From the NCBI RefSeq assembly GCF_036511935.1, contig NZ_AP028878.1, forward strand, positions 1,364,001 through 1,428,000: 64,000 bases of DNA, read 5' to 3'. Positions 25,096-40,269 of this stretch are shown here, piece by piece. The notes under the pieces are model-generated. The model was given only the letters and a program-made list of their open reading frames with translations. It had not been told where the DNA came from and searched no databases. The position numbers and the translations under genes are program-made. This stretch comes from Marinobacter nanhaiticus D15-8W. GTDB lineage: Bacteria > Pseudomonadota > Gammaproteobacteria > Pseudomonadales > Oleiphilaceae. Numbering within the stretch: the stretch's first letter is position 1; the number at the start of each line of letters is the position of its first letter.

Positions 25096-25292
25096 GTCGT
25101 AATATCAAATTTAAATGTGAAGTATTCGTGTTTGCGACAATCTTACCGATCCCCCGCAGGGAGGCAAGCAGGAAAGTGCTTTGGGCGACTATGTCGGAGA
25201 ATATGGAGGTAAAAGGTATCGCGTGAGCCTATGCTTTAAACCTGACCGCCAAGCTTTGTTTGGGGCCCTGAACGCAGTTAATGGAGAAACTG

Positions 25293-25886
25293 ATGGCTAG
25301 AGGTAAGGACGAGTGGCTGTTCGCCGTGAACTTCGTCAAGCATCCCACCATGTTGGGTTCGGTGATCCCAAGCTCCCGGTGGCTCATACGGAGTCTGCTG
25401 GCGCAGGTGGATTGGGACCGGGCTCGCTACTTTGTCGAGTACGGCCCCGGTGTCGGTACCATTACCCGGCATATCCTGAAACGAATGCGTCCCGATGCCA
25501 GGCTCCTGGCATTGGAGATCAATGACGACTTCGTACGCCATCTCAACGCCGCTATCGACGACCCTCGACTGGTGATTCGAAGCGATTCCGCCGCGCGACT
25601 GGGGGCGGTACTCGACGAACTGGACTGGCCCCATGTCGATTATGCCGTTTCCGGCATCCCGTTCTCGACCATGCCGCCGGCCGATGTTGAAGCGGTGCTG
25701 GATGAGACTCGCGCCCGACTCACGCCGCAAGGCGAGTTCCTGGTCTATCAGTTCTCCAGGCATTCCGCCCAGTACCTGCACCGCAGCTTCGACGATGTCA
25801 GTCGCGAGTTCGTGTTGCGTAACGTGCCACCGGTGAGTTGTTATCGGGCCCGTAGTAACGGGGTGGTGGCGAAGGGCAAGCCCTGA
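25293..25886 (+). CDS. SAM-dependent methyltransferase, PmtA/KsgA-like
   Basis: About 197 residues from the ATG at 25293, which has GGAG six nt before it; an ATG at 25281 is the alternative. The SAM-binding motif I is FVEYGPGVGTIT near residue 47, with an acidic second motif ALEIND. Further on, VDYAVSGIPFSTMPP resembles the motif IV region of rRNA adenine dimethylases and phospholipid N-methyltransferases (PmtA-like), a size and pattern typical of small bacterial phospholipid methyltransferases. The N-terminal KHPTMLGSVIPSSRWL segment also fits that group. The substrate is therefore likely a phospholipid head group but is not proven. Followed 40 nt later by a SnoaL-like gene, probably co-transcribed. 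Confidence 0.75.
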   Translation: MARGKDEWLFAVNFVKHPTMLGSVIPSSRWLIRSLLAQVDWDRARYFVEYGPGVGTITRHILKRMRPDARLLALEINDDFVRHLNAAIDDPRLVIRSDSAARLGAVLDELDWPHVDYAVSGIPFSTMPPADVEAVLDETRARLTPQGEFLVYQFSRHSAQYLHRSFDDVSREFVLRNVPPVSCYRARSNGVVAKGKP

Positions 25887-26343: not shown

Positions 26344-26773
26344 TTATCCTTGGCGTTGAACCGTCGGCGGCGGCTGATGGCCTCGGAACCGCATTACGGT
26401 CTCCAGACGTCCTGCGAGGCGCCTGGATCGCGGCCAGTTGAACCTCCATGATTAGAGCCACCTTGCCCCTCTCCTGCAGCTACCGGGTGCGCCAGCCGCC
26501 TCCCGGTATCTGCAATTTTTCCTTTATTCGTTAACGGTCTCATTGGGCAGCACCAAACCCGGCCTTGGTGCTTGCAGGATCGCTGCCTTTCCCGACGCCC
26601 ACCATTAGCCCTTTTGCGCCCTTTCGGGCGAAGTTTTCGCTGATATATAAATTCTTCCGTGAGCGGCCAACGGGCGTCACAACCTAAGGCGTTGGCCTGT
26701 CCCATTGCACGGCTTCCAGGGTGTCCGGCCGGGCAGTGGGACCGAGAGGCCCATCACTGACAAGGAGCTGGTT
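26344..26773. other. 430-nt leader region of the exopolysaccharide locus
   Basis: Non-coding region before the EPS genes. A CGCCC-TTTC-GGGCG hairpin at 26617-26630 may end upstream transcription. TATAAA at 26646-26651 is a possible -10 box with no clear -35. Two consecutive hairpins (26665-26697 and 26700-26741) would fall in the 5' leader. I see no match to known c-di-GMP riboswitch cores. Confidence 0.45.
26665..26741 (+). promoter_or_regulatory. Two tandem hairpins in the EPS leader
   Basis: First stem: GGCCAACG (26665-26672) with CGTTGGCC (26690-26697), 8 bp perfect, 17-nt loop. Second stem: TCCCATTGC (26700-26708) with GCAGTGGGA (26733-26741), 9 bp with one U-G pair. They lie 33 nt before the first EPS-locus start and are separated by only 2 nt, suggesting a structured leader RNA. 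No T-run follows, so they are not an obvious terminator. Confidence 0.5.
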
Positions 26774-27187
26774 ATGAAAACGAACTGCCGCTTTTTCTAT
26801 CGGGGCGCGGTGATGGCCCTCTTTCTTCTGTTTGCCTCGGGACCAGGCATTGCGGGCCCCGCCGATAAAGGGAAACAGAAGGTTGCCCCGCCCAAACGAG
26901 CCAACGCGATGCCGGAGGTCGTGCTGATGCGTGAGCAGGTCCGCCCCCAGGGCGAGTCGGTGCAAAGCAAGAAAATCCGGGGCGCGAAGAAGCATCCCGG
27001 CAAGAAAGGATTCCGGAGCGAGCGGGGCCTGCGGTCTGAGCGTCCCCAGATGACGCGCAATCGCATCGTTGTGGTGCCTGGTGAATTCAGCCAAATCGTC
27101 GAAGTGCGCGCGGTACCTCCGGGCAAGGGCAAGCCGGACAAAGGTAAGCCGAAGATCGGTAACAAGTCAGACAAATCGGCGCCCTAG
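26774..27187 (+). CDS. Secreted, highly basic protein of unknown function
   Basis: A 137-residue protein; ATG at 26774 with AAGGAG seven nt before it. A signal peptide (residues 1-27, ending near GIAGPADK) is followed by a low-complexity, lysine/arginine-rich chain (KGKQKVAPPKR, KKIRGAKKHPGKKGFRSERGLRSERP) and a C-terminal GKGKPDKGKPKIGNKSDK repeat. Only RNRIVVVPGEFSQIVEVRAVPPG looks like an ordered beta segment. I recognise no family. As first gene before a DUF2334, wecB, nfrB and nfrA series it could bind or neutralise an anionic surface polymer, but that rests on charge and position only. Confidence 0.65.
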   Translation: MKTNCRFFYRGAVMALFLLFASGPGIAGPADKGKQKVAPPKRANAMPEVVLMREQVRPQGESVQSKKIRGAKKHPGKKGFRSERGLRSERPQMTRNRIVVVPGEFSQIVEVRAVPPGKGKPDKGKPKIGNKSDKSAP

Positions 27188-27226
27188 CGAAGTCGTTTCC
27201 GACGCTCGCTAACCCAGGACCCGATC

Positions 27227-28918
27227 ATGCCATGGAGAAACCAGGCAATGTTCAGCAAACTCCCTCTCACCATTCGTACACTCTCTCTGGTCTTGTTGTT
27301 CGTTTTCTCCGGCGGCGCCGCAACGACGTCGGCTGCCTCGGTGCAGGCTCTGGTTCTTTACGATTCCGAGCCCGGCAGCAGTTACAACAAGCTTGGCAAA
27401 GCCTATGCCATCATGCTTCGCAATCTGCTAGGGCACTTCGATACGTCCGTCGAGATGAAGCCGGTAGAAGAATACGTAGCGGGCCAGATCGAGGCCAAGG
27501 ACATCACTTTCTATGTAGGTTCCTACTACGATAATGCGCTGCCCACGGCCTTCCTTAACGATGCCTCGACCACCACGCGCAGCCTGGTATGGTTCAAGTA
27601 CAACCTTTGGCAATTGGCCTGGAACCCGGCTTTCAATTTCGAGGCGACGCGCGGCTTCCGGTTTGATGGCGTCGTCAGCCTAAACGCGGCTCCATCGGCA
27701 CAGAACCCGGCGCCGGGGTTCTATGACACCGTGCTGTACAAAGGACGCAGCATGGTGAAGTACTACGATTATGACCCCCAGACAAACTCGGTTTTTGCCG
27801 ACCCCGAAACGGGTGCGACCGCCATTACCAACCCAGCGACGGCCACCACCGTTGTCGAGGTCGAGAATGGCGACACCGGCCAGCGCCTGCCTTACGTCGT
27901 CCGCGCCGGCAACTTCTGGTATGTCGCGGACATTCCGTTCTCGTACATCGGGCCACGGGACCGCTACCTGGTTATTGCAGACCTTCTGCACGATATGTTG
28001 GGCGTGAATACGCCGACCCAGCGGCTTGCCATGATCCGTCTGGAAGACGTGGGCGCGCTCACCGACTACGACGCGATGGAGACCCTGACGGACTATCTCT
28101 ACGGCCAGGGGATCGAATTCTCGATTGCCGCCATCCCCATGTATCGCGATCCGCTGGGTCAATGGAATGGTGGCGTGCCGCAGGAAATCCCGCTCGCCGA
28201 TGCTACAGAGTTCCGCGACGGCCTTGCCTATGCCATGGCCCGTGGCGGTAACGTGGTGCTGCACGGCTATACCCACCAGTATGGCGAAGTGCTTAATCCG
28301 TGGACCGGGGTCAGCGGTGACGACTTCGAGTTCTGGGATATCGTCAACAACCGGCCTGTTCCTGAAGATTCGACGACGTGGGTATTGAATCGGCTCAATG
28401 CGGGTATGGCCGAATTCCTGGCCTACGGCATTTACCCTTATGCCTGGGAAACACCTCACTACCATGCCTCTGCGACCGCCAGTCGGGCCTTTGCACAGCG
28501 CTTCGATACCACCTACAACCGCGTCGTTTATTACACCGCTGACGTTCCCGACTTCGCGGGTGCGAACGGCGACCCGGACTTCGCGGTGGGCCAGTTCTTC
28601 CCGTACATCATCGAGCAGGACTACTACGGCCAGCGCATCCTGCCGGAGAACCTGGGCAACATCGAGTATGACATCAGCCATATCGATCCGGCGTCCTACT
28701 TCGACTACACCTGGCAAGACCTCTACCTGAACGCCCAGTACGCCCTGGTCGTCCGGGACGGGTTTGCCTCCTTCTTCTTCCACCCGTTCTGGCTCGAGCC
28801 CAGCCTGGGGACCCCGGGCCTTGCGGACCTGCAGAACCTCGTGAACGGCATTAACCAACTGGGCTTCACCTGGATAGACGGGAGTGACCTGAGTCCTCCC
28901 CCGCCATTAACGAAATAG
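27227..28918 (+). CDS. Secreted DUF2334 polysaccharide-deacetylase-like protein
   Basis: A 563-residue exported protein. ATG at 27227 has AGGA seven nt before it; a second ATG at 27248 is possible and leaves the signal peptide (ending near TTSAAS) intact. The N-terminal part (about 35-250) is beta-alpha and resembles the glutamine-amidotransferase-like domain often fused here. The second half (about 265-550) is DUF2334, related to carbohydrate esterase 4: RLEDVGALTDY (metal-site aspartate), VLHGYTHQYG (HxxxH metal ligands) and ETPHYHAS. Such enzymes are expected to remove N-acetyl groups from polysaccharides. Its place before wecB and an NfrB-like synthase suggests it trims the exported polymer in the periplasm. 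Confidence 0.8.
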   Translation: MPWRNQAMFSKLPLTIRTLSLVLLFVFSGGAATTSAASVQALVLYDSEPGSSYNKLGKAYAIMLRNLLGHFDTSVEMKPVEEYVAGQIEAKDITFYVGSYYDNALPTAFLNDASTTTRSLVWFKYNLWQLAWNPAFNFEATRGFRFDGVVSLNAAPSAQNPAPGFYDTVLYKGRSMVKYYDYDPQTNSVFADPETGATAITNPATATTVVEVENGDTGQRLPYVVRAGNFWYVADIPFSYIGPRDRYLVIADLLHDMLGVNTPTQRLAMIRLEDVGALTDYDAMETLTDYLYGQGIEFSIAAIPMYRDPLGQWNGGVPQEIPLADATEFRDGLAYAMARGGNVVLHGYTHQYGEVLNPWTGVSGDDFEFWDIVNNRPVPEDSTTWVLNRLNAGMAEFLAYGIYPYAWETPHYHASATASRAFAQRFDTTYNRVVYYTADVPDFAGANGDPDFAVGQFFPYIIEQDYYGQRILPENLGNIEYDISHIDPASYFDYTWQDLYLNAQYALVVRDGFASFFFHPFWLEPSLGTPGLADLQNLVNGINQLGFTWIDGSDLSPPPPLTK

Positions 28919-29042
28919 GGCAGCGCCCATGGCCCGGCAAAGGCGGCATACGGCTGTATCGCCGCCGCCCGGGCCGCTCTCAGGGGAAAGAACGCTTATT
29001 CAGCAGGCAGCGCAAGCGCGCAACCAAAAGGCAGGACGCATA

Positions 29043-30185
29043 ATGAAGAAAATACTGGTGATTGCGGGGACCCGACCGGAAGTCATCAAGCTGGCTCCGG
29101 TCTACCTGGAGGCGGTCGATCGGTTTGGTACCGATGCTGTGGAATGGATCAACACGGGACAGCATACCGCGCTGGCGGACCTGGCCCTCCAGGCGTTCGG
29201 TGTCAGTCCGGGGCGGGTGCTCGAGAGTATGGCTCCAGGCGGCTCGCTGGGCGTACTCACCCGCAACCTGGTCAGCGAGCTCGATGGTTTGTTTACCCAG
29301 TCGCCGCCCGAGGCTGTCGTCGTGCAGGGTGATACGACGACAGCCTTTGCGGGCGCGCTGGTGGCCTTCTACCACCGGATTCCCAGCATCCATGTCGAGG
29401 CCGGATTGCGCTCGTTCGACTGTGCCAATCCGTTTCCGGAGGAGGCCAACCGCCGGATGATCAGCAGCCTCGCGACCATCCATTGCGCGCCAACACCCCG
29501 GGCGGCTGAAAACCTGCGTCGCGAGGGGGTATCGGAAGCACAGATCCTCATTACCGGCAATACGGTGGTGGATGCGGTGCATCACGTTCGAGACAAGTTG
29601 CTGCACCTTTGCCGGCCGGTGGACGAGCACAAGCGTCGGATTCTCGTGACCATGCACCGTCGGGAAGCCTGGGGCGACGAGATGGAGAAGATGTGCATCG
29701 CGTTGCGCACGCTCGCCGATAGCCGTTCCCAGGTGGAGATTCATTTTCCGGTCCATCTGAACCCGAGAGTACGGGAACCTGTGCACCGGTTACTCGGGCA
29801 TCATCCCCGGATCCATCTGCTTGATCCGTTGGACTACCTCAGCCTGCAAAAGGTGTTGAGCCAGAGTTACCTGGTGCTCACGGACTCCGGCGGCATCCAG
29901 GAAGAAGCGCCCAGCTATGGCGTGCCGGTATTGGTGTTACGCCGCTTGACCGAACGGCCGGAAGCCGTAGAGCAGGGTTCGGCGCAAGTCACCGGAACCG
30001 ATCCGGATATCGTGGTCAGCGCCGCGCAACGTTTGATCGACGACCATGCGGCCTATCGATCGATGGTGAAGAACGTCAATCCGTTTGGGGATGGCTACGC
30101 GGCGGCCCGGATCGTCCAGCGCATGGCCGAGTTCCTGTCGCAGCAGCCGGCGAAGACCGAGCGCGCGTCCCACGTTGCGGCCTAG
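29043..30185 (+). CDS. wecB: UDP-N-acetylglucosamine 2-epimerase (non-hydrolysing) WecB
   Basis: A 380-residue enzyme interconverting UDP-GlcNAc and UDP-ManNAc. The ATG at 29043 begins the conserved MKKILVIAGTRPEVIKLAPV; the frame extends to 28929 without similarity. Diagnostic segments are intact: VVVQGDTTTAFAGALVAFYHRIPSIHVEAGLRS (catalytic D and E), PFPEEANRRMIS, ILVTMHRREAWG, and LTDSGGIQEEAPSYGVPVLVLRRLTERPE. A stand-alone copy directly before an NfrB-like synthase suggests it supplies UDP-ManNAc for this polymer, as WecB does in E. coli, where the gene is in the ECA cluster instead. Confidence 0.94.
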   Translation: MKKILVIAGTRPEVIKLAPVYLEAVDRFGTDAVEWINTGQHTALADLALQAFGVSPGRVLESMAPGGSLGVLTRNLVSELDGLFTQSPPEAVVVQGDTTTAFAGALVAFYHRIPSIHVEAGLRSFDCANPFPEEANRRMISSLATIHCAPTPRAAENLRREGVSEAQILITGNTVVDAVHHVRDKLLHLCRPVDEHKRRILVTMHRREAWGDEMEKMCIALRTLADSRSQVEIHFPVHLNPRVREPVHRLLGHHPRIHLLDPLDYLSLQKVLSQSYLVLTDSGGIQEEAPSYGVPVLVLRRLTERPEAVEQGSAQVTGTDPDIVVSAAQRLIDDHAAYRSMVKNVNPFGDGYAAARIVQRMAEFLSQQPAKTERASHVAA

Positions 30186-30206
30186 CTGGATACGAGGAGT
30201 CAGGGA

Positions 30207-31844
30207 ATGGATTGGGTAGACAGCATCGCGATTTACTGGTTCCTCGTAAAGCTGCTGCTTATTACGACGGCCGTACTGATCGCCATCAGTAGTTTCGATG
30301 ACCTGTTCATCGACATCTGCTATTGGTGCCGGCGGACATACCATCGGCTGACCGGCATCGAGGCCTCCGAAACACCTACGCTGGAGAGCCTGAGGGCGTC
30401 CGAGGAGCGACCCATCGCCCTGATGGTGCCGGTCTGGCAGGAGGCGGACGTTATCGCGCAGATGTTGCACAACGCGCTGACGGTGTTCGACTACAAGAAC
30501 TTCCACATCTTCGTCGGCACCTATCCCAACGATCCCGACACCCAACGGGAAGTCGACCGGGTGGCCGCCTCGCAGCTCAATATCCATAAAGTGGTTGGCG
30601 CCCGGCCGGGGCCCACCTGCAAGGCGGACTGCCTGAACGAGGTGATCACTGCGATACTCGCGTTCGAGGAGAAACAGGGCATCGAGTTTGCCGGCTTCGT
30701 GCTCCAGGATGCCGAAGATGTCGTGCATCCCCTCGAATTACGGTTGTTCAACCACATGGTCTCCCGCTACGACCTGGTGCAGATTCCGGTTCTGCCCCTG
30801 CCCAGACCCTGGCGGGAATTTACCGGGGGGCATTACAAGGACGAGTTCTCGGAGTGCCATTCCAAGGATGTTCCTGTCCGGGCGGCGCTCACCGGGATCG
30901 TTCCCAGTGCAGGGGTGGGCACCGCGTTCAGCCGGCACGCCATCCTGGCACTGCATCGCGAGCGCGATGGCGAAGTCTTCAATCCCAAAAGCCTCACGGA
31001 AGACTACGACATCAGCCTGCGGCTGCGGGAGCTGGGCATGAGGCAAGTGTTCGTGCGCGTTCGGGTACCCATCGAAAGCCCGAGTGAGCGCAGGAACCCG
31101 GGCCATGCGGATGAGTACATCGCCGTACGCGAGTATTTCCCCAATCGTTTCCGCGCTGCCTACCGCCAGAAAGCCCGCTGGATACTCGGTATTGCCTTGC
31201 AGGGCTGGGCGAACGTGGGCTGGAAAGGTGACCTGGCCACCAAGTACATCCTCTTTCGAGATCGCAAGGCGCTGGTCACGTCGCAAGTTGGCTTCCTGGC
31301 TTATTTCGTCGTGCTTAACGTGGTGGCCATGGAGGTTGTCCACCTGCTGCTTCCCGATAGCTACTGGTTCCCGCAACTGGTTCCGGTCGACAGCTGGTTG
31401 TGGTGGCTGATGATCGTCAACGCACTGCTACTCAGTAACCGCGTCCTGCATCGGATTGTTTTCATGACGCACCTCTTCGGTTGGCGCCAGGGGCTACTTT
31501 CTGCACCCCGACAGATCTGGGCCAACGTGGTCAATTTCTTCGCCTGTAACCGCGCCCTGCGACAGTTTGCCGGGCACCTGTTGCACGGCCGTCAGTTGGG
31601 CTGGGACAAGACCCAGCACGCGTTTCCCGTGGCACCCGGGCTGGGCGCCCAGCGCAGGCGGCCTTTGGGTGAGTTGCTTTTGGACCTCCACGCCATTGCC
31701 TCCGAACAGCTGCACGCGGTGTTGGCCGAACAGCGCCAGGACCCGCGTCCCCTGGGGCATCTCCTGCTGGATCGCGGTTGGTTGAACGAGCAGACCCTGG
31801 AACGGGCTTTACGGATGCAGGAAGGCTTTGAAAAAGCCGCATAA
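30207..31844 (+). CDS. nfrB: NfrB-like glycosyltransferase with C-terminal MshEN c-di-GMP domain
   Basis: A 545-residue inner-membrane synthase; GAGGAG seven nt before ATG. One N-terminal transmembrane helix (residues 9-29) precedes a GT2 domain: MVPVWQEADVIAQML, VLQDAEDVVHPLELRLF (DxD-like), SLTEDYDISLRLRE (catalytic base region) and RQKARWILG (QxxRW, the processive-synthase motif, near residue 325). Three or four membrane helices follow. Residues 486-538 show the MshEN pattern: two 24-residue PLG-x2-LL...L-x3-L-x2-Q motifs separated by exactly five residues, a known c-di-GMP-binding module. E. coli NfrB has the same build, is activated by c-di-GMP and is needed for a ManNAc-containing exopolysaccharide used by phage N4. 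Direct context with wecB and NfrA-like genes supports the same role. Confidence 0.88.
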   Translation: MDWVDSIAIYWFLVKLLLITTAVLIAISSFDDLFIDICYWCRRTYHRLTGIEASETPTLESLRASEERPIALMVPVWQEADVIAQMLHNALTVFDYKNFHIFVGTYPNDPDTQREVDRVAASQLNIHKVVGARPGPTCKADCLNEVITAILAFEEKQGIEFAGFVLQDAEDVVHPLELRLFNHMVSRYDLVQIPVLPLPRPWREFTGGHYKDEFSECHSKDVPVRAALTGIVPSAGVGTAFSRHAILALHRERDGEVFNPKSLTEDYDISLRLRELGMRQVFVRVRVPIESPSERRNPGHADEYIAVREYFPNRFRAAYRQKARWILGIALQGWANVGWKGDLATKYILFRDRKALVTSQVGFLAYFVVLNVVAMEVVHLLLPDSYWFPQLVPVDSWLWWLMIVNALLLSNRVLHRIVFMTHLFGWRQGLLSAPRQIWANVVNFFACNRALRQFAGHLLHGRQLGWDKTQHAFPVAPGLGAQRRRPLGELLLDLHAIASEQLHAVLAEQRQDPRPLGHLLLDRGWLNEQTLERALRMQEGFEKAA

Positions 31845-31886
31845 CCGTCAGCCGGAATCGAACGCCAAGCAAGGAACCGCGGTGCC

Positions 31887-34800
31887 ATGGGACGACGTAT
31901 TTTTGCGGCCGGTCGGTCTGACGATCATCACGGCCATTTCAGGGTTATCCAAAACCGGCTTCTATTCGTCGCACTTATTGCTTTCAGCCCACTCAGCGGG
32001 GCGCAGCAAGCCGAGCCGCCGACACAGGCTGAGGTTGCAACCGGAAGCGACAGCGAAGCGTCGACCTGGGCAGGCCGCCAGAGCTGGCTTCAGCAGGAAC
32101 TGGCGAAATTCCGTAAATACCCCTATCTCGAGCGCGCCGAACGGCTGATTGGCGCAGGGCAATCGGAAGCAGCCGCTGACGAGCTGGAGCGGGTCCTGGC
32201 CCTGGATCCTGACGATGTCGATGTCCGGCTGCGCCTGGTCGTGCTCTTGCTGGGACCGCTGGATAAACCCGGCCTTGCCGGCGAACAGGCGTCGAAGCTG
32301 ATCGAACGGGATCGCGAGCTGGGGCTGGCATACCACTACCGCGCCCTGGCCAAGCTTTACCTCGAAGATACCGATGGGGCGGTCGCAGACTGGAGGCGCG
32401 CGCTCGACACCGGGGAATTGAGCAAAGACCGCAGCCGGTATATCCGGCGTCAACTTGCGGATATCGCAATACAACGTGGCGACTTTGCAGCGGTGCCTCC
32501 ACTGCTCGAAGACGATGGCGCCGACCAGCCCTTCGAGGACCGGATGCGGCTCACCCGGGCTTACCTGGAACTTGACCGGCCGGCAGAGGCATCGCAAATA
32601 CTTTTCCAGGCGGTGCTCGAAGTTGAGGATGTTCCGCCCGGTGGATGGCTCACGATCGCGCAGTACCAACTGGAACTGGACAAACCCGCGCTTGCGGCTG
32701 TCACGATCAATCGCGGGCTGGAAGTCGAGGAACCCGCAGCCCTCAGACGCGAGCTGGCGACGTCCCTGGGTCATCTCCATATGCAGCGGGGCAGACCGGA
32801 CCTTGCCGCCCGGGCTTTTGCCCAGGCGGCCGAGGAGGGTGAGCCGGATGCGGCGCTGTACCTGGCCTGGGCCCAGGCCTTGGCAGAGTCCCAGTCAACC
32901 GCCCAGGCGCTGGACGTCATTGAGACTGTCGAGCAGACATCGCCCTACGGCCGTCGTCTACACGCCCAGTTGCTCGCGGATATGGGGCGGCCCGAGGATG
33001 CGGCGCGTGTATTGACGCGACTTACTGAGGATCCTTCACAAGGAGAGAACGCCGGTGTAATAGCGCTGGAAATAGCGGATCTGTATGCCCGGGCGGGGGA
33101 ATCGGAGGCCCAGATGGCGGCGCTGGAACGCGCGGTGTCGCTCATGCCGGACTACTCCCCGGCGTTGCGGGCATTGGCCGAGCGGCAGATTGGCGCCGGC
33201 GAGTTGGCGGCTGCCTCGGCCACGCTCGAGCGGCTCGTGGCGATTGAAGACTCGCCGTCAGCCCGATTACGGTTGGTGGACGTCTTGTTGGCCTCAGACG
33301 ATTACCCGACGGCCCTGGTGGAGCTGCGTTTGCTCGCGGAGAGTCTCCCGTCTGGTCATCCCGAGCGGATGCGTGTGTTGCGTCAATGGGCGATTGTGGC
33401 CGAAGCCGAACAGCAATGGCCGGATGCCGCCCGCGCCTGGGAGGGCTTGTACCTGGCGGACAACAACAGGCCGCCGGAACTGCTGCTACAGGCGGCCCGC
33501 GCTGCGCGCCTTGGGGATCAGCCGGCGCTGGCAAGGCAGTTTCTCGACCAGCTCGCCAGCGACGATTTCGACAATGACGCCCTGGCTCCGGGCGTGCGTG
33601 CCGCGCTCTTCGAAGAGCGCGCCCAGCTGGCCCTTTTGGAGGGCGACCGCATTGCAGCCGCCCAGTCGCAGCAGCAGGCAGTAATCGCTCAACCTACGGC
33701 AGCGCGTCACTATCAGATGGCCCAGATCTGGAACGAGGTGGGGGAAACCGGTAATGCCCACCAAGCGCTCCAGCAGGCGGTCATGATGGCGCCGGACAAC
33801 GCCGAATATCAGGCCACCCTCGGCTATGCCTATGTGGAAGGAAACGATGACCAGCGCGCTGCCGAACATTTCGAGGCGGCGCTGGCGATCGATCCGGGCC
33901 GGTTGTCGCTGTACGAGGAGTTAGCGTATACCTACCGACGCCTTGGTCGGGACGAAGCCGAGGCCAGGATGTTCGGTGAGCTTGTCCGCCGGCAGGCCGG
34001 GGGCGCGCGATCCCATGATGACTTGACTGCAGGCGCCGGACCGAAACCGGGTGGCGTCGCAAGGCTACGGCTGGAGCAGGCGCAAGCGTTGAGGCGGGCA
34101 GGACTGCCGGCTCAGGCGCTGGAAGTACTTGAGTCCAGTGATGATCTCACCATTTACGGTACGCGGCTTAAGGTCCAGCTTCTCATGGAGATGGGCCGGC
34201 TAGAGGACGCAGAGCGTGAGCTGAACAAGCTGCTCGATAGCTCCTCCCGCCAGCAGGCACCGGGACCTGTCGCGCTGGAGATTGCCGAAATGCACGCCAG
34301 GGCGGGAGACACGGATGCCCAACTGGCGGCTCTTGAGCGGGCGGTTGCACTTGCACCGGACTATACACCGGCCCTGAATGCCCTGGTGGAACGGCAGGTC
34401 GGGGCCGGAGACCTGCAAGGGGCCGCGAACACCCAGCGACGACTGGTCGAGCTGGAGGGCGGGACGGACGCACGCGCCAGACTGGTGGATATATTGCTGG
34501 CGGCCGAGAACTTCGATGCGGCATCGGTCGAATTACAGCAGCTTGTGGAAGACCTTCCGCCAGAGAATCCAGACCGGGCCAGGGTAATGCGACAGTGGGC
34601 GGGCGTAGCGGAAGCCGAGGGCCAATGGGCCGCCGCAGCACAGGCCTGGGAGGCACTCTACCGGACAGACGATACCCAGTCGGAGTCGTTGATGCTGCAT
34701 GCGGGGCGTGCGGCGCGGCTTTCAGGCCAGTTCGCGAAGGCCGACCAAATGCTGGCACAAGTCAGCGAGGACGAGTTGACACGTGGCGACCAGGCGCTGC

Positions 34801-36020
34801 TGTATGAGGAACGCGCCCGACTTGCGTCGCTGGAGGGGGATACACAACGAGCTGCGGAGGCACAACGCAGGGCGGTCTGGGCTGATCCCACGGCGGAACG
34901 TCACTATCGGCTTGCCCAGTACCAGTTGGAGCTCGATGAACTGGCCAGTGCCCGCAGCGAACTGCTGCAGGCCGTGATGCTCGAACCCGACAACGCCGAA
35001 TTCCAGGCCAGCCTGGGTTACGCCCACCTGAACGCCGGGGAAGAGGCGCTCGCGGCGGATCACTTCGAAGCCGCCCTGGCCGCCGAACCCCAGCGCCTGC
35101 CGCTGTATGAGGAACTGGGCTACGTTTACCGACGGCTAGGGGAAGATGAAGCCGCTGCCAAGGCTTTCCGAGCGCGTATCGATCTGGCGCAAGCCGGCGT
35201 AGCCAACGGCTTACGGGGGGACTCCAAAAGTGACAATGTCGTCGGTACCGGCACCGATGAGGCTGGCTATGAATTACGCCGAGAGGTCCAGCAGTTGGAG
35301 GATCGGCTACGGATAGGCGCGGGCTTGTTCGTCCGTCGCATGAATGGGGACGGCACATCGGCGCTAGATGCGCCCCTCGGCCTCGCCGGGTTCCAGAGTC
35401 AGGCCGGTGTGGATATCGGGTACCGCCTCGATGATGTCTCGGATGGCCGCTTTGTCGAGGTGTTCGGGCGCAGCCTCTGGGCGTTTGAGGAAGATACGCT
35501 ATCACCCGAAGGGAGCGAGACCCAGGGTGGCGTCGGGTTGAGGGTAAAACCCTTTGCCCCGGTCAATTTTTTCCTCTCTGGCGAGCGACTGGTGGCGTTG
35601 GGAAGCGATGCGAGGAACGACTGGATGCTGCGTGCGAGTGCCTCCTTCAACCGCGGGTCCGCCTATGTTCCGGACCAGACATACCAGCACTACCGATCGG
35701 TCTATCTGGACGCGGCTCTGGTCGTGGATGACAGCGCCGAATTTCTCGTGGGAGAGTGGCGTGAGGGGCTCGCCATCCGCGTAGGGCAGGGCTTGGGTGT
35801 CGCTCCCTATGCTGTTGCTGCCGTGAGCTATACCGATGATGCTGAAACCGAACGCCGCTACGAGATCGGTCCGGGCATCGCCCTACGTGGCTGGTTTGGC
35901 GGTGACGCCTACCATACCCACAGCAGTGAGCTAGAATTGGGGTTGGAGTATCGGGAGGTGGTGGGTGGAAACACGGACGAAGATTCGGGCGTTGTCGTGC
36001 GCCTGTATGTCGGTTTCTGA
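31887..36020 (+). CDS. nfrA: Giant NfrA-like TPR protein with C-terminal outer-membrane domain
   Basis: A 1377-residue protein; AAGGAA precedes the ATG at 31887. A signal peptide ends near PLSGAQQ (residue 40). Residues about 60-1110 are tetratricopeptide repeats. Within them a block of about 400 residues is duplicated: YGRRLHAQLLADMGRPEDA near residue 354 reappears as YGTRLKVQLLMEMGRLEDA near residue 757, and the similarity holds to LYEELAYTYRRLG / LYEELGYVYRRLG. Residues about 1140-1377 are a beta-rich domain ending in VVVRLYVGF, a terminal phenylalanine typical of outer-membrane barrels, as in NfrA. E. coli NfrA is about 990 residues, so the duplication explains the extra length. Role: periplasmic scaffold and outer-membrane exit for the polymer made by NfrB; in E. 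coli also the phage N4 receptor. Confidence 0.85.
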   Translation: MGRRIFAAGRSDDHHGHFRVIQNRLLFVALIAFSPLSGAQQAEPPTQAEVATGSDSEASTWAGRQSWLQQELAKFRKYPYLERAERLIGAGQSEAAADELERVLALDPDDVDVRLRLVVLLLGPLDKPGLAGEQASKLIERDRELGLAYHYRALAKLYLEDTDGAVADWRRALDTGELSKDRSRYIRRQLADIAIQRGDFAAVPPLLEDDGADQPFEDRMRLTRAYLELDRPAEASQILFQAVLEVEDVPPGGWLTIAQYQLELDKPALAAVTINRGLEVEEPAALRRELATSLGHLHMQRGRPDLAARAFAQAAEEGEPDAALYLAWAQALAESQSTAQALDVIETVEQTSPYGRRLHAQLLADMGRPEDAARVLTRLTEDPSQGENAGVIALEIADLYARAGESEAQMAALERAVSLMPDYSPALRALAERQIGAGELAAASATLERLVAIEDSPSARLRLVDVLLASDDYPTALVELRLLAESLPSGHPERMRVLRQWAIVAEAEQQWPDAARAWEGLYLADNNRPPELLLQAARAARLGDQPALARQFLDQLASDDFDNDALAPGVRAALFEERAQLALLEGDRIAAAQSQQQAVIAQPTAARHYQMAQIWNEVGETGNAHQALQQAVMMAPDNAEYQATLGYAYVEGNDDQRAAEHFEAALAIDPGRLSLYEELAYTYRRLGRDEAEARMFGELVRRQAGGARSHDDLTAGAGPKPGGVARLRLEQAQALRRAGLPAQALEVLESSDDLTIYGTRLKVQLLMEMGRLEDAERELNKLLDSSSRQQAPGPVALEIAEMHARAGDTDAQLAALERAVALAPDYTPALNALVERQVGAGDLQGAANTQRRLVELEGGTDARARLVDILLAAENFDAASVELQQLVEDLPPENPDRARVMRQWAGVAEAEGQWAAAAQAWEALYRTDDTQSESLMLHAGRAARLSGQFAKADQMLAQVSEDELTRGDQALLYEERARLASLEGDTQRAAEAQRRAVWADPTAERHYRLAQYQLELDELASARSELLQAVMLEPDNAEFQASLGYAHLNAGEEALAADHFEAALAAEPQRLPLYEELGYVYRRLGEDEAAAKAFRARIDLAQAGVANGLRGDSKSDNVVGTGTDEAGYELRREVQQLEDRLRIGAGLFVRRMNGDGTSALDAPLGLAGFQSQAGVDIGYRLDDVSDGRFVEVFGRSLWAFEEDTLSPEGSETQGGVGLRVKPFAPVNFFLSGERLVALGSDARNDWMLRASASFNRGSAYVPDQTYQHYRSVYLDAALVVDDSAEFLVGEWREGLAIRVGQGLGVAPYAVAAVSYTDDAETERRYEIGPGIALRGWFGGDAYHTHSSELELGLEYREVVGGNTDEDSGVVVRLYVGF

Positions 36021-36035
36021 TGTGGTCAAAGACTC

Positions 36036-37034
36036 ATGTCGGTGAAGCATCGCTACTTGTGGCTACTGCTGGCAATCTCTCTTCCCGCCTACGCGAACGA
36101 GTGCCCCGACGCGCCCTTTCGCTCAAGCTTTCTTCAACCCCTGGCTTCCGACCTCGAACGTCCAGCTCAGGAATGGCAGGCCAAGTTGGCGGGTATCGCA
36201 GCGACCGGCATTGAGACCCTGTACCTGCAGTGGAGTGTCTATGGTGACCTGGATCTTAGCCAGGACACCGGTATCGGCTTTCTCACCGGGTGGCTCGACC
36301 AGGCCCATTCAAGCGGACTGAGTGTCCACCTGGGATTGGTCGCGGATGCGGACTTCGGTACGCGCATCACCGAGCCTGCTGATGCACTGTCTGCGTACCT
36401 CTCAGATCTTCGTGCCCGCTCCCTGGCGGTGGCAGGTCGACTCGATGCCAGGATAGGGGGGCATCCTGCCTTTGCCGGCTGGTATCTTCCCGAAGAAATC
36501 GACGATCGCTCGTGGGCCGATGCCTGGCAGGTGGATATGCTGCGGGAACATCTGCGGGCGCAGGTCGAGACTCTTGCGCGCTTGAGCCCTGCAAAGACGG
36601 TGAGCATCTCGACCTACGTGAGTGGCGCCAGATCGGCGGACCAGTTCGAGGACCTCTGGCGGGCGCTATGGGCCGCAGCGCCCCACCTCCACCTCCTCCT
36701 GCAGGACGGAGCCGGTGTAGGCGCTTTACCGCGTGCGGAGTTCAACGAATACGCGCAAGGCATCAACCAGATAGCCGCTGGACAAGATCGGTATTGGGGG
36801 ATGATCGTCGAGCTCTTTTCCCAGGAAAGCGGACCGCCGCTGGATGATGCGCCGTTCAGCGCGACAGCGGCGCCCATCGAACGGGTGCGGCAGCAGCTGG
36901 ATGCGGTCGCCGCGCTCACTCCCGGCCCTGACGAGACCATCGCCTTCTCGGTCCCCGAGTACTTACTTGACCCCACACGGCCAGGCCAGGACGAGCTGCT
37001 CAGCGCGTATAGACGCCTATACTGTCGACTTTGA
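36036..37034 (+). CDS. Secreted DUF4434-like putative glycoside hydrolase
   Basis: A 332-residue exported protein with signal peptide MSVKHRYLWLLLAISLPAYA. The mature chain reads as a TIM barrel of the DUF4434 kind: FLQPLASDLERPAQEWQAKLAGIAATGIETLYLQWSVYGD, LSVHLGLVADADF, FAGWYLPEEIDD (acidic cluster at the expected catalytic strand), KTVSISTYVSG, HLHLLLQDGAGVGALP and WGMIVELFSQ. Members are predicted glycosidases without proven substrate. It starts 15 nt after the NfrA-like stop and is the last gene of the EPS series, so it may cut or release the polymer in the periplasm. DUF number given from memory of the motif pattern. Confidence 0.68.
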   Translation: MSVKHRYLWLLLAISLPAYANECPDAPFRSSFLQPLASDLERPAQEWQAKLAGIAATGIETLYLQWSVYGDLDLSQDTGIGFLTGWLDQAHSSGLSVHLGLVADADFGTRITEPADALSAYLSDLRARSLAVAGRLDARIGGHPAFAGWYLPEEIDDRSWADAWQVDMLREHLRAQVETLARLSPAKTVSISTYVSGARSADQFEDLWRALWAAAPHLHLLLQDGAGVGALPRAEFNEYAQGINQIAAGQDRYWGMIVELFSQESGPPLDDAPFSATAAPIERVRQQLDAVAALTPGPDETIAFSVPEYLLDPTRPGQDELLSAYRRLYCRL

Positions 37035-37127
37035 AAGCGACCGTTGACTTCGTAAGGCCGAGACTCGACACAGTGAGCGTCATAAGCCAGGTCACCGTCA
37101 CGGGATAGTTGCAACCAGCCACGGACT

Positions 37128-38024
37128 TTACCCTGAATCGTTCCGGGGCCTGACATCAGAGCGCACATGGATCTTGTTCACGGCCTGGGCCCGGTTCGAG
37201 ACGTCCAGTTTCCGGAAAATGCGCTTCACGTGATTCTTCACGGTGAACGGGCTGATATCCAGAATGACGCCAATAACCTCGTTGGTTTTCCCGGCCCTTA
37301 CCCAATCCATAATTTCGCGCTCGCGTTGGGTTAACCCGAATTCCAGGTAGGGTTTCGCCGCGCTATTGAGGTTGGGCTGTAGCCGTAAAGGCGTCAGCTG
37401 TCGCAAGGCGGTGTCCACGTGAGGCAACAACAGCTTGAAATAGTACTGAACCGACCGGGGCGGGGTCAGCGCCTGACTGAAGACGATGTAGAGTATATGG
37501 TTTTGCCCCCGCTCATCCTTTATGCCATGAACAATTGCCGACCGCATACGCTTGAAGGTCGCAGACACCGAGCCCGGCGTGTCGACCTTGTTAAGGTCCA
37601 GCGCAAACCCCCGTTCGTTCCGAAGCCAGAAAAGCTGTGCCCCACCGTCGTTCCAACGTGTTAGCAGGTTCTTGAGAAAGGGCATCACGTCGGCACTGAC
37701 AACGTCCGATGTACGCATGCCCGGGAGCGCGGAAACGACATCCACTTCGAGGGCATCCGTACCCGGTATGCTCCATGCCGCGAGCACAATCTCATGGGGT
37801 AGGTACGTTTGCAGATCTCCCTGTAGCCAATGAAAGAGATCGGCATGGCTTTGAATCTTAAGGGCCTCCTGTATCACTCCCAGGAACTGACTGTGTTTGA
37901 CAAAAATGGCTTCGGGGGACTCGAAAAAGTGTGCCACCTTTTCGTCCTTTTGCCGTCTGTTTAAGAGATCTGTGCTGGGACACTGACTACTTGAACGGGA
38001 AAGGGAGTCGCCAACAAAAAACAT
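37128..38024 (-). CDS. epsA: EpsA-type LuxR-family transcriptional regulator
   Basis: A 298-residue regulator facing the EPS locus. Residues about 40-215 are a sensor-like domain (FLGVIQEALKIQSHADLFHWLQGDLQTYLPHEIVLAAW) with no recognisable autoinducer-binding signature. Residues about 230-290 are a LuxR/GerE helix-turn-helix: LTQREREIMDWVRAGKTNEVIGVILDISPFTVKNHVKRIFRKLDVSNRAQAV. The whole matches the EpsA regulators found in XrtB/PEP-CTERM-associated exopolysaccharide loci. The start codon is uncertain: the ATG at 38024 lacks a clear ribosome-binding site and the family core begins about 30 residues later. It probably controls the convergent EPS genes or the acyltransferase at 3.5 kb. Confidence 0.82.
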   Translation of the reverse strand: MFFVGDSLSRSSSQCPSTDLLNRRQKDEKVAHFFESPEAIFVKHSQFLGVIQEALKIQSHADLFHWLQGDLQTYLPHEIVLAAWSIPGTDALEVDVVSALPGMRTSDVVSADVMPFLKNLLTRWNDGGAQLFWLRNERGFALDLNKVDTPGSVSATFKRMRSAIVHGIKDERGQNHILYIVFSQALTPPRSVQYYFKLLLPHVDTALRQLTPLRLQPNLNSAAKPYLEFGLTQREREIMDWVRAGKTNEVIGVILDISPFTVKNHVKRIFRKLDVSNRAQAVNKIHVRSDVRPRNDSG

Positions 38025-38535
38025 GATGTTGGCTAACCAGATTCATGCCGTGGCGTAATAATGAACATGATTTCAAATATTTGTTTTTATCAACTGTTGT
38101 CACTTTCTGGTGAACTGTAAATTTACCCGACGAGTCGCGTGCGGCCTTGTGAGGCCCGTAATCTGAATGCCTACCAATATATTTTTGTTGGCATAAAGAA
38201 GACCCGTTTAGATCCGGAAGCTTATTATACGGCCATCGCGTCGCCTCACTCATGCCTTCGTGCGTAAAACGGATTGACACTTGAGAATATTCTCAAGTGT
38301 TGGTCTGTCGCATTTGGTCATGCAGGCCCCTGCATTGGTTTCTTCCGGGCATACAGGCTGTTGAACGCTGTTGCGCTCAAACAATTCTGGTGCTCTTTCC
38401 CTTGACCCCCACGCAAACAGGCTTAGGGTTAGCAGAGACAGCTCCATTTTTCCGACGACCAATTTCCAGCGCAAAGGACAGGCGCCGGCTATCAGGCAAC
38501 AGCCGGCTTACCGGAACAACTGAAAGGAGAACGCG
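38025..38535. other. 511-nt divergent regulatory region
   Basis: Between epsA (leftward) and the IDH-family gene (rightward). It holds a CAAATATTTG palindrome (38074-38083) close to epsA, the perfect 24-bp palindrome (38277-38300), and a GCCGGCT/AGCCGGC hairpin (38484-38507) just before the AAAGGAG of the downstream gene. No gene recognised. Confidence 0.5.
38277..38300. promoter_or_regulatory. Perfect 24-bp palindrome, candidate operator
   Basis: The half-site ACACTTGAGAAT is followed directly by its exact reverse complement with no spacer. A TTGACA (38274-38279) overlaps its left end, so a bound dimer would occlude that -35 box. It lies about 236 nt before the IDH-family gene and about 250 nt before epsA. 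It does not match the LexA, Fur, OxyR or typical LuxR-box patterns I know. Confidence 0.65.
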
Positions 38536-40269
38536 ATGGACAACACGATCCGGGTGGAATCGCCACTGGTCATCCTCCATGGTGACGAGATGGCCCAGGT
38601 AGCTTTTGAGGAACTCCTGAAGACGTTTGTCACGTCGCGGCTGGAGATCGAGCTTAAGGAAATCGATCTCTCTGCAGAAAATCGACTGGCGACCAATGGG
38701 CAGGCAGTCACCGAAGCTATTGAGGCGATCAAAAAATACGGCATCGGCATCAAGAACGCAGGGATCACCGTCAACCGTAGCCAGCTCGAAGCGCTTCTCA
38801 AGAAATACCCTGACGTCGATGGCAACGCCCTGGATCCGCTGGCCACCAAGTCGCCCAACGGCGCTATCCGTAAAGGCATCGGCGGCAACATCACCCGGGA
38901 GGACATCCAGTTCCGCAATCTCCGCGTCCGTCGACCCGAGTGGATCGACCGTGATATTGAAGTCATGACCATGGATAACGGTGGCATCAAGGACAGCTTC
39001 AACGAGCTGGCTCGCGCCACAGGCATCATCAAACTGCTGTTCGTCGGCAGCAGCGGCGATCCGGAAGAACTTCATCGCCGGGAGATCAACAAGGGCGATC
39101 CCCTGTTATTGGCCACCAACGACCTGGGCGACATCCGGGATTGGGCACATCGGTTCTTCCAGCGCGCCATCGACGAGAAACGGGATATCTACCTGGGCCT
39201 GAAGGATACGGTGATCCCCGGCTATGACGGTGCCATGCGCTCCGCCATCGAAGACATCTACCAGAGTGACTATCGGGAAAAGGTGGAGGGCCTCGGACTC
39301 AACTTCTATTACGAACTGATTGACGCGCAGGCAGCGCGAATCGTGTCCAACCCGCCGGAGCGAGCCCTGTGGGGCGTGCCGGACAACACCACAGGCCGTA
39401 AGCTCTTCAAGTTGGTCAACCAGTTGAAACGCTACGGCATACCCGATCGCAGTGCGCATGTCTCCATTTCGCGTATGAGCGCGGGCGGCGGCGACCAGTA
39501 CGGCAGCTTCAACGCGCCGGCGAGGGAAGACGGGATCGTCAAGGTGGTTGTCGATGGCGAGGAGCGGCACGCCAGGCACGTCAAGAAAGGCGACCCCATG
39601 CTGCTCATGTCCAACGACCGTGAGGCTATCAAGGACTGGGTCAGCCAGGTTTTCCGGGATGCGTCCCGTAAGGATAAGGAAGTCTACTTCGGCCTGAAGC
39701 GGGAATACATGGAGTACGACGAAGTCTTCAGCAATGTCATCACCGAGGTGCGCCGGGAGCTGGCGAAGCAGCATACGCCGCCGCCGTCCTTCATGATCAT
39801 GCGACCGTCCAGACAATTGCGGAAGATGATTACAGATCCGCCCCGCAATGCCCTCTATCCCTCCCAGAACCTGGACGGCGATATCTTCTCCGATATCTCC
39901 GCCGCCCTCGGGGGCAGCCTCGCCACGGCCAGCTCGATCATCGAAAGCAAGGACGGCGCGATGCTTTTCGAGGCGCCCCACGGTACCGCACATGACCTCT
40001 ATGTGAAGTATCAGGAGAGCGGGGGCAAGGAGGCGCATTTCAATCCTTCCGCATTAATCTATGCATTGGGCAACGCGCTGGAAACCTTGGGCGAAAGGGA
40101 TGGAAACCGCGAGCTGGCGGATTATGCGGGACGACTTAAACAGGCACTCAAGGATACCGTGGCCGACGGTATCGTTACTGCCGACCTGAAAGGCAAGATC
40201 ACCAACAAGGACGCCGAGAAAGTGGTGGATCTGTATGGGTTTATCGACGCGCTGAAGGCGCGCATGTAG
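38536..40269 (+). CDS. Atypical isocitrate-dehydrogenase-family protein with internal duplication
   Basis: A 577-residue protein; AAAGGAG precedes the start. It follows NADP-isocitrate dehydrogenase of the eukaryote-like family: LHGDEMAQVAFEELLKTFV (usual DGDEMTR), ENRLATNGQAV, IKKYGIGIKNAGIT, SPNGAIRKGIGGNITRE (two substrate arginines kept). The next segment is present twice. Copy 1 (about 155-285): MDNGGIKDSF, NDLGDIRDWAHRFFQRAIDEK, YLGLKDTVIPGYDG, YYELIDAQAARIVS. Copy 2 (about 305-430): SRMSAGGGDQYGSF, NDREAIKDWVSQVFRDASRK, YFGLKREYMEYDE. Then NLDGDIFSDISAALGGSLATASS and EAPHGTAHDLY complete the fold. The GRHAYGDQY-type site is lost in copy 1 but partly kept in copy 2; the lysine of GLKDT and the NLDGDIFSD aspartates remain. 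Activity as a dehydrogenase is uncertain. Normal homologues have about 410 residues. Confidence 0.75.
   Translation: MDNTIRVESPLVILHGDEMAQVAFEELLKTFVTSRLEIELKEIDLSAENRLATNGQAVTEAIEAIKKYGIGIKNAGITVNRSQLEALLKKYPDVDGNALDPLATKSPNGAIRKGIGGNITREDIQFRNLRVRRPEWIDRDIEVMTMDNGGIKDSFNELARATGIIKLLFVGSSGDPEELHRREINKGDPLLLATNDLGDIRDWAHRFFQRAIDEKRDIYLGLKDTVIPGYDGAMRSAIEDIYQSDYREKVEGLGLNFYYELIDAQAARIVSNPPERALWGVPDNTTGRKLFKLVNQLKRYGIPDRSAHVSISRMSAGGGDQYGSFNAPAREDGIVKVVVDGEERHARHVKKGDPMLLMSNDREAIKDWVSQVFRDASRKDKEVYFGLKREYMEYDEVFSNVITEVRRELAKQHTPPPSFMIMRPSRQLRKMITDPPRNALYPSQNLDGDIFSDISAALGGSLATASSIIESKDGAMLFEAPHGTAHDLYVKYQESGGKEAHFNPSALIYALGNALETLGERDGNRELADYAGRLKQALKDTVADGIVTADLKGKITNKDAEKVVDLYGFIDALKARM

Follow-up and report, generated by a model that had tools for sequence, protein, structure and literature searches.

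Here we describe a gene cluster of Marinobacter nanhaiticus D15-8W that resembles the Nfr exopolysaccharide (EPS) system of E. coli and carries, in addition, a gene for a candidate polysaccharide deacetylase. The cluster lies in a stretch of 64,000 nt (NZ_AP028878.1, positions 1,364,001-1,428,000 of the forward strand), which is called the window below and to which all coordinates refer. We favor, with moderate confidence, the view that this Nfr-type locus, probably acquired horizontally, makes an EPS based on N-acetylmannosamine (ManNAc), part of whose N-acetyl groups are removed in the periplasm. On the + strand, six open frames follow one another head to tail from 26774 to 37034, with intergenic gaps of 39, 10, 21, 42, and 15 bp. 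A seventh gene, encoding a LuxR regulator of the EpsA type, meets this operon tail to tail (Table 1). Each identified gene passes the cut-off of at least one Pfam or NCBIfam model (DUF2334, WecB, NfrB-type synthase, NfrA_C with tetratricopeptide repeats (TPR), DUF4434, and EpsA). Family scores and motifs confirm the gene list of a preliminary description of this DNA, namely a basic protein, a DUF2334 protein, WecB, a glycosyltransferase of family 2 (GT2) with QxxRW and MshEN, a TPR/outer-membrane protein, and a DUF4434 protein.

In the proposed scheme, WecB would convert UDP-N-acetylglucosamine (UDP-GlcNAc) to UDP-ManNAc, and the NfrB-type synthase would polymerize and translocate the chain when cyclic di-GMP (c-di-GMP) is bound to its minimal MshEN tail. 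The DUF2334 protein would then strip N-acetyl groups in the periplasm via a metal-dependent site of the carbohydrate esterase family 4 (CE4) type, in the place that PelA holds in Pel. The DUF4434 protein may cut stray or finished chains, and the TPR array and beta-barrel of NfrA would export the chain, presumably in this periplasmic order. Pel also uses TPR/beta-barrel export. By analogy, the logic of the locus may be that of Pel with other parts.

The GT2 protein scored 689 bits against the NF012033 (PRK15489) glycosyltransferase model (cut-off 537). Against NF008411, the equivalog model of E. coli NfrB, it scored 665 bits over model positions 3-538 of 723. Because the cut-off of 1170 was missed, it is filed as an NfrB-type homologue and not as the E. 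coli equivalog. For the same reason, NfrB, NfrA, and YbcH of the window are all regarded as homologues rather than strict E. coli-type orthologues. The blastp alignment of GT2 with E. coli NfrB spans 547 columns at 47% identity (E 3e-167), compared with E 7e-4 for PgaC and 0.28 for BcsA. The expected grouping with NfrB, and not with cellulose or poly-N-acetylglucosamine (PNAG) synthases, is borne out on these pairwise scores, which are not a tree with BcsA and PgaC. Model and pairwise scores together rule out a PNAG or cellulose synthase origin of GT2. The protein has TED at residues 264-266 and QxxRW at 321-325, and all 13 active-site and MshEN positions that were compared are identical to those of E. 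coli NfrB. Positions mutated in E. coli NfrB, which include D169, D267, W330, L490, G491, and L537 in the available parts of two reports (PMC8669469, PMC8669472), are conserved in the window synthase.

The c-di-GMP motif model NF053729 matches the C-terminus of the synthase with 51 bits (cut-off 38). L487, G488, L502, L506, L516, G517, L531, and L535 are the residues that E. coli NfrB has at 490-537. Both 24-residue MshEN motifs are intact, and the protein stops 7 residues past the second one. It is thus some 180-200 residues shorter than most NfrB proteins, 54 of the 71 sequences compared having 702-745 residues with script-chosen starts. The conserved MshEN residues suggest that the window synthase is controlled by c-di-GMP.

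Two trees were built from the 71 NfrB sequences. The first was made without 28 Pseudomonadaceae sequences, which were thinned out, and without the broken nfrB of locus L087, which is interrupted by an in-frame stop codon (genome G1048, Pseudomonadaceae). For the second, the remote sequences L005 and L031 were also removed and G1464 was added. On both trees, the proteins of the window and of Halopseudomonas are paired at 100% bootstrap and fall outside the E. coli-type clade. The pair also lies outside a second clade, in which 12 of 13 sequences come from loci with BcsB, the exception being L030. The sequences of G163 and Phenylobacterium are on long branches and their placement is uncertain. 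Loci with bcsB ahead of nfrB represent a second nfr architecture, which is seen in Pseudomonadaceae (L073, L076-L079, L086, L089, and L091) as well as in L023, L024, L026, L027, and L015. BcsB (8 loci) and DUF4434 (42 loci) never occur together among 50 Pseudomonadaceae loci, but both are present in G274 (L015), Variovorax (L024), and G1464 (L148).

WecB scored 414 bits against TIGR00236 (cut-off 210) and 347 bits against Epimerase_2 (cut-off 30.6), and at E up to 0.001 the genome of 5.4 Mb has no other WecB match. Two nucleotide-sugar dehydrogenases of this genome exceed the TIGR03026 cut-off, and neither attains the cut-offs for UDP-ManNAc dehydrogenase. One exceeds the cut-off for TviB UDP-GlcNAc dehydrogenase; the other is nearest to the UDP-glucose dehydrogenase models, below their cut-offs. 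The single WecB and the dehydrogenase scores are compatible with a UDP-ManNAc pool that would be reserved for the nfr locus. According to section 11 of PMC8669469, genomes without another wecB have one beside nfrB. In Pseudomonadaceae, wecB is within the fetched stretch at 48 of the 50 nfr loci.

The DUF2334 protein scored 157 bits against PF10096 (cut-off 26). Its structural model, with a mean predicted local distance difference test (pLDDT) score of 90.5, comprises two domains, an alpha/beta domain starting at about residue 39 and a CE4-type domain. Fold matches to the model are CE4 enzymes, among them the CE4 pseudoenzyme BA3943, and PelA residues 281-776; the alignment with PelA covers 364 of 563 residues at a root-mean-square deviation of 6.0. 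The candidate catalytic residues E273, D274, H346, H350, R432, and H519 are invariant in 37 aligned sequences, distant relatives included. The model and these residues support the suggested deacetylase role, and the protein is a candidate metal-dependent polysaccharide de-N-acetylase. In a Pfam search at E up to 0.01 only DUF2334 was matched. Since no polysaccharide deacetylase family was matched by sequence, we describe the protein as CE4-type and do not file it under CE4. The hydrolase domain of PelA (carbohydrate esterase family 21, CE21) was not found, as Pfam gave no match besides DUF2334 and the model opens with the alpha/beta domain. A literature search, itself partial, returned no report that connects nfr loci with a deacetylase gene. 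The deacetylases mentioned together with NfrB, in the portions of the literature available, are those of phage tailspikes. Kinship of DUF2334 to these was rejected because there was no match in 50,697 phage records.

DUF2334 and nfr genes are linked repeatedly. Neighborhoods were taken from the fetched stretch, mostly 20 kb. Genes were labeled by blastp to a reference set (the window, E. coli, L021, L022, L023, L026, and L032), so that unrelated neighbors are left unnamed. A collection scan with one NfrB sequence as query gave only 4 loci. Of 369 gammaproteobacterial genomes drawn evenly, 7 have NfrB (E up to 1e-60) and 7 have DUF2334 (E up to 1e-20). Both occur in 4 genomes (the window's own, G152, G163, and G203), always in one neighborhood, and G203 has two DUF2334 genes. 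With the own genome excluded and phylogeny ignored, the hypergeometric P of this co-occurrence is 5e-5. Among 367 genomes drawn from a different class of the phylum, presumably Alphaproteobacteria, G1464 and G1148 have DUF2334. In G1464 (L147/L148), three tandem DUF2334 genes precede bcsB-nfrB-nfrA, and a DUF4434 gene is present as well. Altogether, nfrB adjoins DUF2334 in 4 of the 8 drawn genomes that have DUF2334, the own one not counted; in G131, NfrA-like and DUF4434 genes adjoin it on a short contig. In a phylum-wide draw of 398 genomes, DUF2334 was found in the window's own genome and in no additional one.

Outside the draws, the linkage is seen in Halopseudomonas laoshanensis, Phenylobacterium aquaticum, and a Comamonadaceae plasmid. 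A plasmid of Burkholderia vietnamiensis (L022, 6483-17276) has DUF2334 between two diguanylate cyclase (DGC) genes, with no nfr gene annotated in the stretch. On a plasmid of Streptomyces sp. NBC_01237 (L032, 4646-11659), an annotated protein of glycoside hydrolase family 16 (GH16), WecB, GT2, DUF2334, and a GH113 gene adjoin one another. The GT2 of this plasmid is closer to PgaC than to NfrB, and the same functional set is combined here with another synthase. A search for further plasmid relatives of the Streptomyces and Phenylobacterium DUF2334 proteins returned the same three records only. On the second NfrB tree, the DUF2334 label (8 of 41 sequences) requires 5 changes, at least 3 of which are forced by well-supported branches. 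Shuffled labels required 7.5 changes on average and as few as 5 in 8 of 500 shuffles, so the label is partly clustered. A single clade of DUF2334-bearing NfrB proteins was recovered in none of 200 bootstrap trees and is unsupported. Gain and loss of the linkage cannot be told apart on this tree.

The DUF4434 protein scored 126 bits against PF14488 (cut-off 30) and 139 bits against NF007404, the model of E. coli YbcH (cut-off 344). It is modeled as a (beta/alpha)8 barrel of clan GH-A, in agreement with its fold matches. In clan GH-A, the catalytic Glu residues are on strands 4 and 7. E154 on strand 4 and E259 on strand 7 of the window model are invariant, and both are also present in E. coli YbcH. 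The hydrolase role proposed earlier is thus supported at the level of the model; the window protein is a candidate GH-A glycosidase, and E. coli YbcH may be one too, since the two candidate Glu residues are shared. The TPR protein matches NfrA_C (PF13283) with 118 bits (cut-off 25) and several TPR families, giving the TPR array plus NfrA_C by which NfrA is recognized, and it scored 141 bits against the E. coli NfrA model NF007302 (cut-off 1223).

Several findings weigh against a c-di-GMP-controlled, partly deacetylated ManNAc polymer and are considered here with the alternatives they favor. The base position of DUF2334 is occupied by Glu, where CE4 enzymes, PelA, and PelADA have Asp. A PDB sequence profile search with DUF2334 gave no solved structure, and hence no solved deacetylase, above noise. 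No chain of PelADA (CE26/CBM114) was matched either, the presence of 9ZAU in the searched copy being unsure. DUF2334 occurs in 1 of 27 plasmid records with NfrB. In Pseudomonadaceae, where 47 of 298 genomes have nfr genes at 50 loci, it was found at one locus and was absent from the fetched stretch at the other 49. In the gammaproteobacterial draw, 3 of the 6 other NfrB genomes (G024, G065, and G274) are without such a DUF2334. Three of the 8 drawn DUF2334 genomes show no adjacent nfr gene, namely G036 and G114, with short contigs of 5.6 and 13.5 kb, and G1148. The co-occurrence counts are small and disregard phylogeny. Finally, the secreted basic protein is awkward beside a cationic polymer. 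It has no Pfam or NCBIfam match, and among the loci compared a counterpart was seen only in Halopseudomonas (71% over 80 aa). Given its single occurrence among the 50 Pseudomonadaceae loci, DUF2334 is rejected as a gene common to nfr loci in general. The expectation that DUF2334 and DUF4434 genes co-occur with nfrB holds for DUF4434 in Pseudomonadaceae (42 of 50 loci) and fails there for DUF2334, which nevertheless turns up repeatedly beside nfr genes of other lineages. It is a recurrent minority companion of nfr genes, which is a new point.

The rarity of DUF2334 in Pseudomonadaceae and its Glu would fit an ordinary Nfr locus that makes the fully acetylated glycan of E. coli. In this case, DUF2334 would be inactive, an O-deacetylase, or a helper in export or binding that is carried by linkage. 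The core Nfr genes are all present, DUF4434 is the usual third gene, and CE4 pseudoenzymes such as BA3943 exist. However, even distant relatives keep the candidate metal and catalytic residues unchanged, and hitchhiking does not predict a linkage that is scattered on the NfrB tree, nor the two DUF2334 copies of G203 and the tandem three of G1464. We regard this alternative as unlikely, although it keeps some weight.

A different sugar is also conceivable. The polymer might be deacetylated but built from another UDP-N-acetylhexosamine (UDP-HexNAc) or from a mixture, with WecB feeding it only partly. In the accessible parts of the reports, even for E. coli the sugar product of NfrB is a deduction from genetic data (PMC8669469, PMC8669472), and the EPS of the B. 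subtilis YdaL operon is recognized by a lectin for galactose/N-acetylgalactosamine (PMC13274460). In view of this lectin binding, DUF2334 need not imply ManNAc. The window NfrB also lies outside the E. coli clade. On the other hand, the operon includes the sole WecB gene that was found in the genome, nearly all Pseudomonadaceae loci have wecB close to nfrB, and WecB accompanies DUF2334 even with the non-NfrB synthase of Streptomyces. We therefore consider a polymer without ManNAc as its basis rather improbable. It is very improbable that the locus is silent or regulated mainly at transcription by EpsA, with a minor role for c-di-GMP because the MshEN region is cut down. The early end of the synthase and the conservation of the EpsA gene with the module would suit such regulation, and two DUF2334-linked synthases, from Comamonadaceae (515 aa) and G203 (512 aa), are without the motif pair, which likewise counts against c-di-GMP control. 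Nevertheless, the window synthase retains both motifs and the residues that were examined in E. coli, and two GGDEF-EAL proteins are encoded in the same window.

A partly deacetylated ManNAc polymer thus remains the reading we prefer, and its genes appear to have come from elsewhere. Among 121 genomes of the same family, which include five others of the genus, nfrB was found in the window's own and in no other; DUF2334 was found in 1 of 37 Halopseudomonas genomes. A blastn comparison shows the window and Halopseudomonas loci to be collinear from 26604 to 37916, with 72-75% of nucleotides identical and no match in the flanks. In the same-genus genome G409, the flanks 25263-25861 and 38397-40262 are about 5.0 kb apart, compared with 12.5 kb in the window, and other DNA lies between them. 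Only the right flank is shared near the locus in G391, G397, and G403. In the simplest reading, the module was probably acquired horizontally from outside the family. The left flank common to G409 is marked by a methyltransferase gene (25281-25886, +), whose product is nearest to the ornithine-lipid N-methyltransferase OlsG at 104 bits, far below the cut-off of 350.

The six genes first delimited stand, but the boundaries do not, as the unit shared with Halopseudomonas reaches from about 26604 to 37916. The upstream region and the EpsA gene are counted in the unit because the conserved block covers them. Alignment of the upstream region with Halopseudomonas shows conserved stretches, one of which contains TATATAAA. 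A promoter scan listed no site in this region, and promoter and terminator scans gave nothing that exceeded shuffled sequences. The EpsA-type regulator scored 224 bits against TIGR03020 (cut-off 170), and a homologue with 61% identity is in the same place in Halopseudomonas. This linkage to nfr is seen in the window and Halopseudomonas, and a related LuxR gene is at a Nitratireductor nfr locus. Control of the operon by EpsA, earlier proposed to replace the E. coli control, is a guess from gene linkage.

Table 1. Features of the nfr-type locus in the window
Feature	Position	Strand	Basis and remarks
Upstream region	26604..26773	+	blastn block with Halopseudomonas laoshanensis starts at 26604; probable operon promoter and leader
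Secreted basic protein, 137 aa	26774..27187	+	31 K/R versus 10 D/E; N-terminal hydrophobic segment
DUF2334 protein, 563 aa	27227..28918	+	PF10096; N-terminal alpha/beta and CE4-type domains; candidate periplasmic polysaccharide de-N-acetylase
WecB, non-hydrolyzing UDP-GlcNAc 2-epimerase (UDP-ManNAc source)	28929..30185	+	TIGR00236
NfrB-type membrane GT2 synthase, 545 aa	30207..31844	+	NF012033, TED and QxxRW motifs, trees
Minimal MshEN c-di-GMP motif pair, residues 486-538, extreme C-terminus of synthase	31662..31820	+	NF053729
NfrA-like outer-membrane export protein, 1377 aa, TPR array and NfrA_C	31887..36020	+	PF13283 at residues 1211-1372; several TPR families
DUF4434 (YbcH family) protein, candidate clan GH-A glycosidase	36036..37034	+	PF14488; Glu154 on strand 4, Glu259 on strand 7
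EpsA-type LuxR regulator	37128..38024	-	TIGR03020; conserved with the operon in Halopseudomonas

Other genes of the window may also be related to EPS. A GH114 protein (4357-5205, -; PF03537, 307 bits) is encoded about 22 kb from the locus and is a possible second EPS link; GH114 is known for polygalactosaminidases. Two PAS-GGDEF-EAL proteins (15994-18597 and 58240-60765, both +), distant on either side, are possible c-di-GMP sources or sinks. In addition, an OsmC-like domain is fused to YcaO and YcaO_C at 55042-57246 (+).

The locus had been described as an enlarged Nfr locus, and DUF2334 does stand out. DUF4434 is the family of ybcH, the third gene of the E. coli operon nfrBA-ybcH, and a linked wecB is already published (section 11 of PMC8669469); both are standard and were rejected as novelties. 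The new points are the DUF2334 deacetylase candidate at nfr loci, the sporadic occurrence of the module, and the predicted GH-A membership of the YbcH family. More broadly, and with slightly less than even confidence, DUF2334 proteins of this kind could be dedicated de-N-acetylases of WecB-fed polymers. Such loci would make partly deacetylated, cationic poly-ManNAc/mannosamine, an apparently undescribed class of biofilm sugar. The set of epimerase, synthase, DUF2334, and GH-A hydrolase would have been assembled more than once, in Streptomyces with an unrelated synthase, and E. coli YbcH would be the matching glycosidase. The Nfr polymer is a phage receptor in E. coli, and its chemistry is apparently unresolved in the literature; the available text of PMC11990801 calls the N4 glycan enigmatic. 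With precursor supply, synthase, export, and deacetylase and hydrolase candidates together, the locus offers a compact system for isolating and analyzing this polymer. If the deacetylase acts on the polymer, partly deacetylated ManNAc would rank beside PNAG and Pel among the cationic polymers of biofilms, with possible consequences for phages that depend on the acetylated chain. With the DUF4434 prediction, the unexplained third gene of E. coli nfrBA-ybcH can be tested directly.

Among known systems, Pga (PgaABCD) shares the logic of a partly de-N-acetylated HexNAc polymer, although by blastp E. coli PgaC and PgaB have no close match among the window proteins. The B. subtilis ydaJKLMN operon is also c-di-GMP-controlled, makes EPS, and includes a DUF2334 protein, YdaL, a name that appears on PF10096 matches (PMC5422440, PMC13274460). 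It differs in being Gram-positive, with five genes and a separate c-di-GMP receptor, YdaK; the parts of these reports at hand name no WecB or NfrA and do not term YdaL a deacetylase. The Pel system, with PelA (CE21) and PelADA (CE26) of B. cereus, resembles the DUF2334 locus in having an alpha/beta domain followed by a CE4-like deacetylase, an Asp-His-His metal site, and a c-di-GMP-controlled HexNAc polymer (PMC12022489, PMC13254593). However, the window protein is without the PelA hydrolase domain and has Glu at the base, and synthase and epimerase are different. Pseudomonas and other bacteria have nfr loci that likewise include wecB adjoining nfrB (Junkermeier and Hengge 2021, PMC8669469 section 11); that section mentions DGC genes and an alginate-type acetyltransferase cluster, and no DUF2334 or deacetylase. 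A further close system is E. coli NfrBA-YbcH with WecB, which makes the N4 glycan receptor (NGR). Compared with it, the window has wecB inside the operon, the added DUF2334 and basic protein genes, an EpsA-type neighbor, and a synthase of a separate NfrB lineage that is about 200 residues shorter after MshEN. The two systems share the NfrB-type GT2 with MshEN, the TPR/outer-membrane protein NfrA, DUF4434 as the third gene, and WecB as the precursor source.

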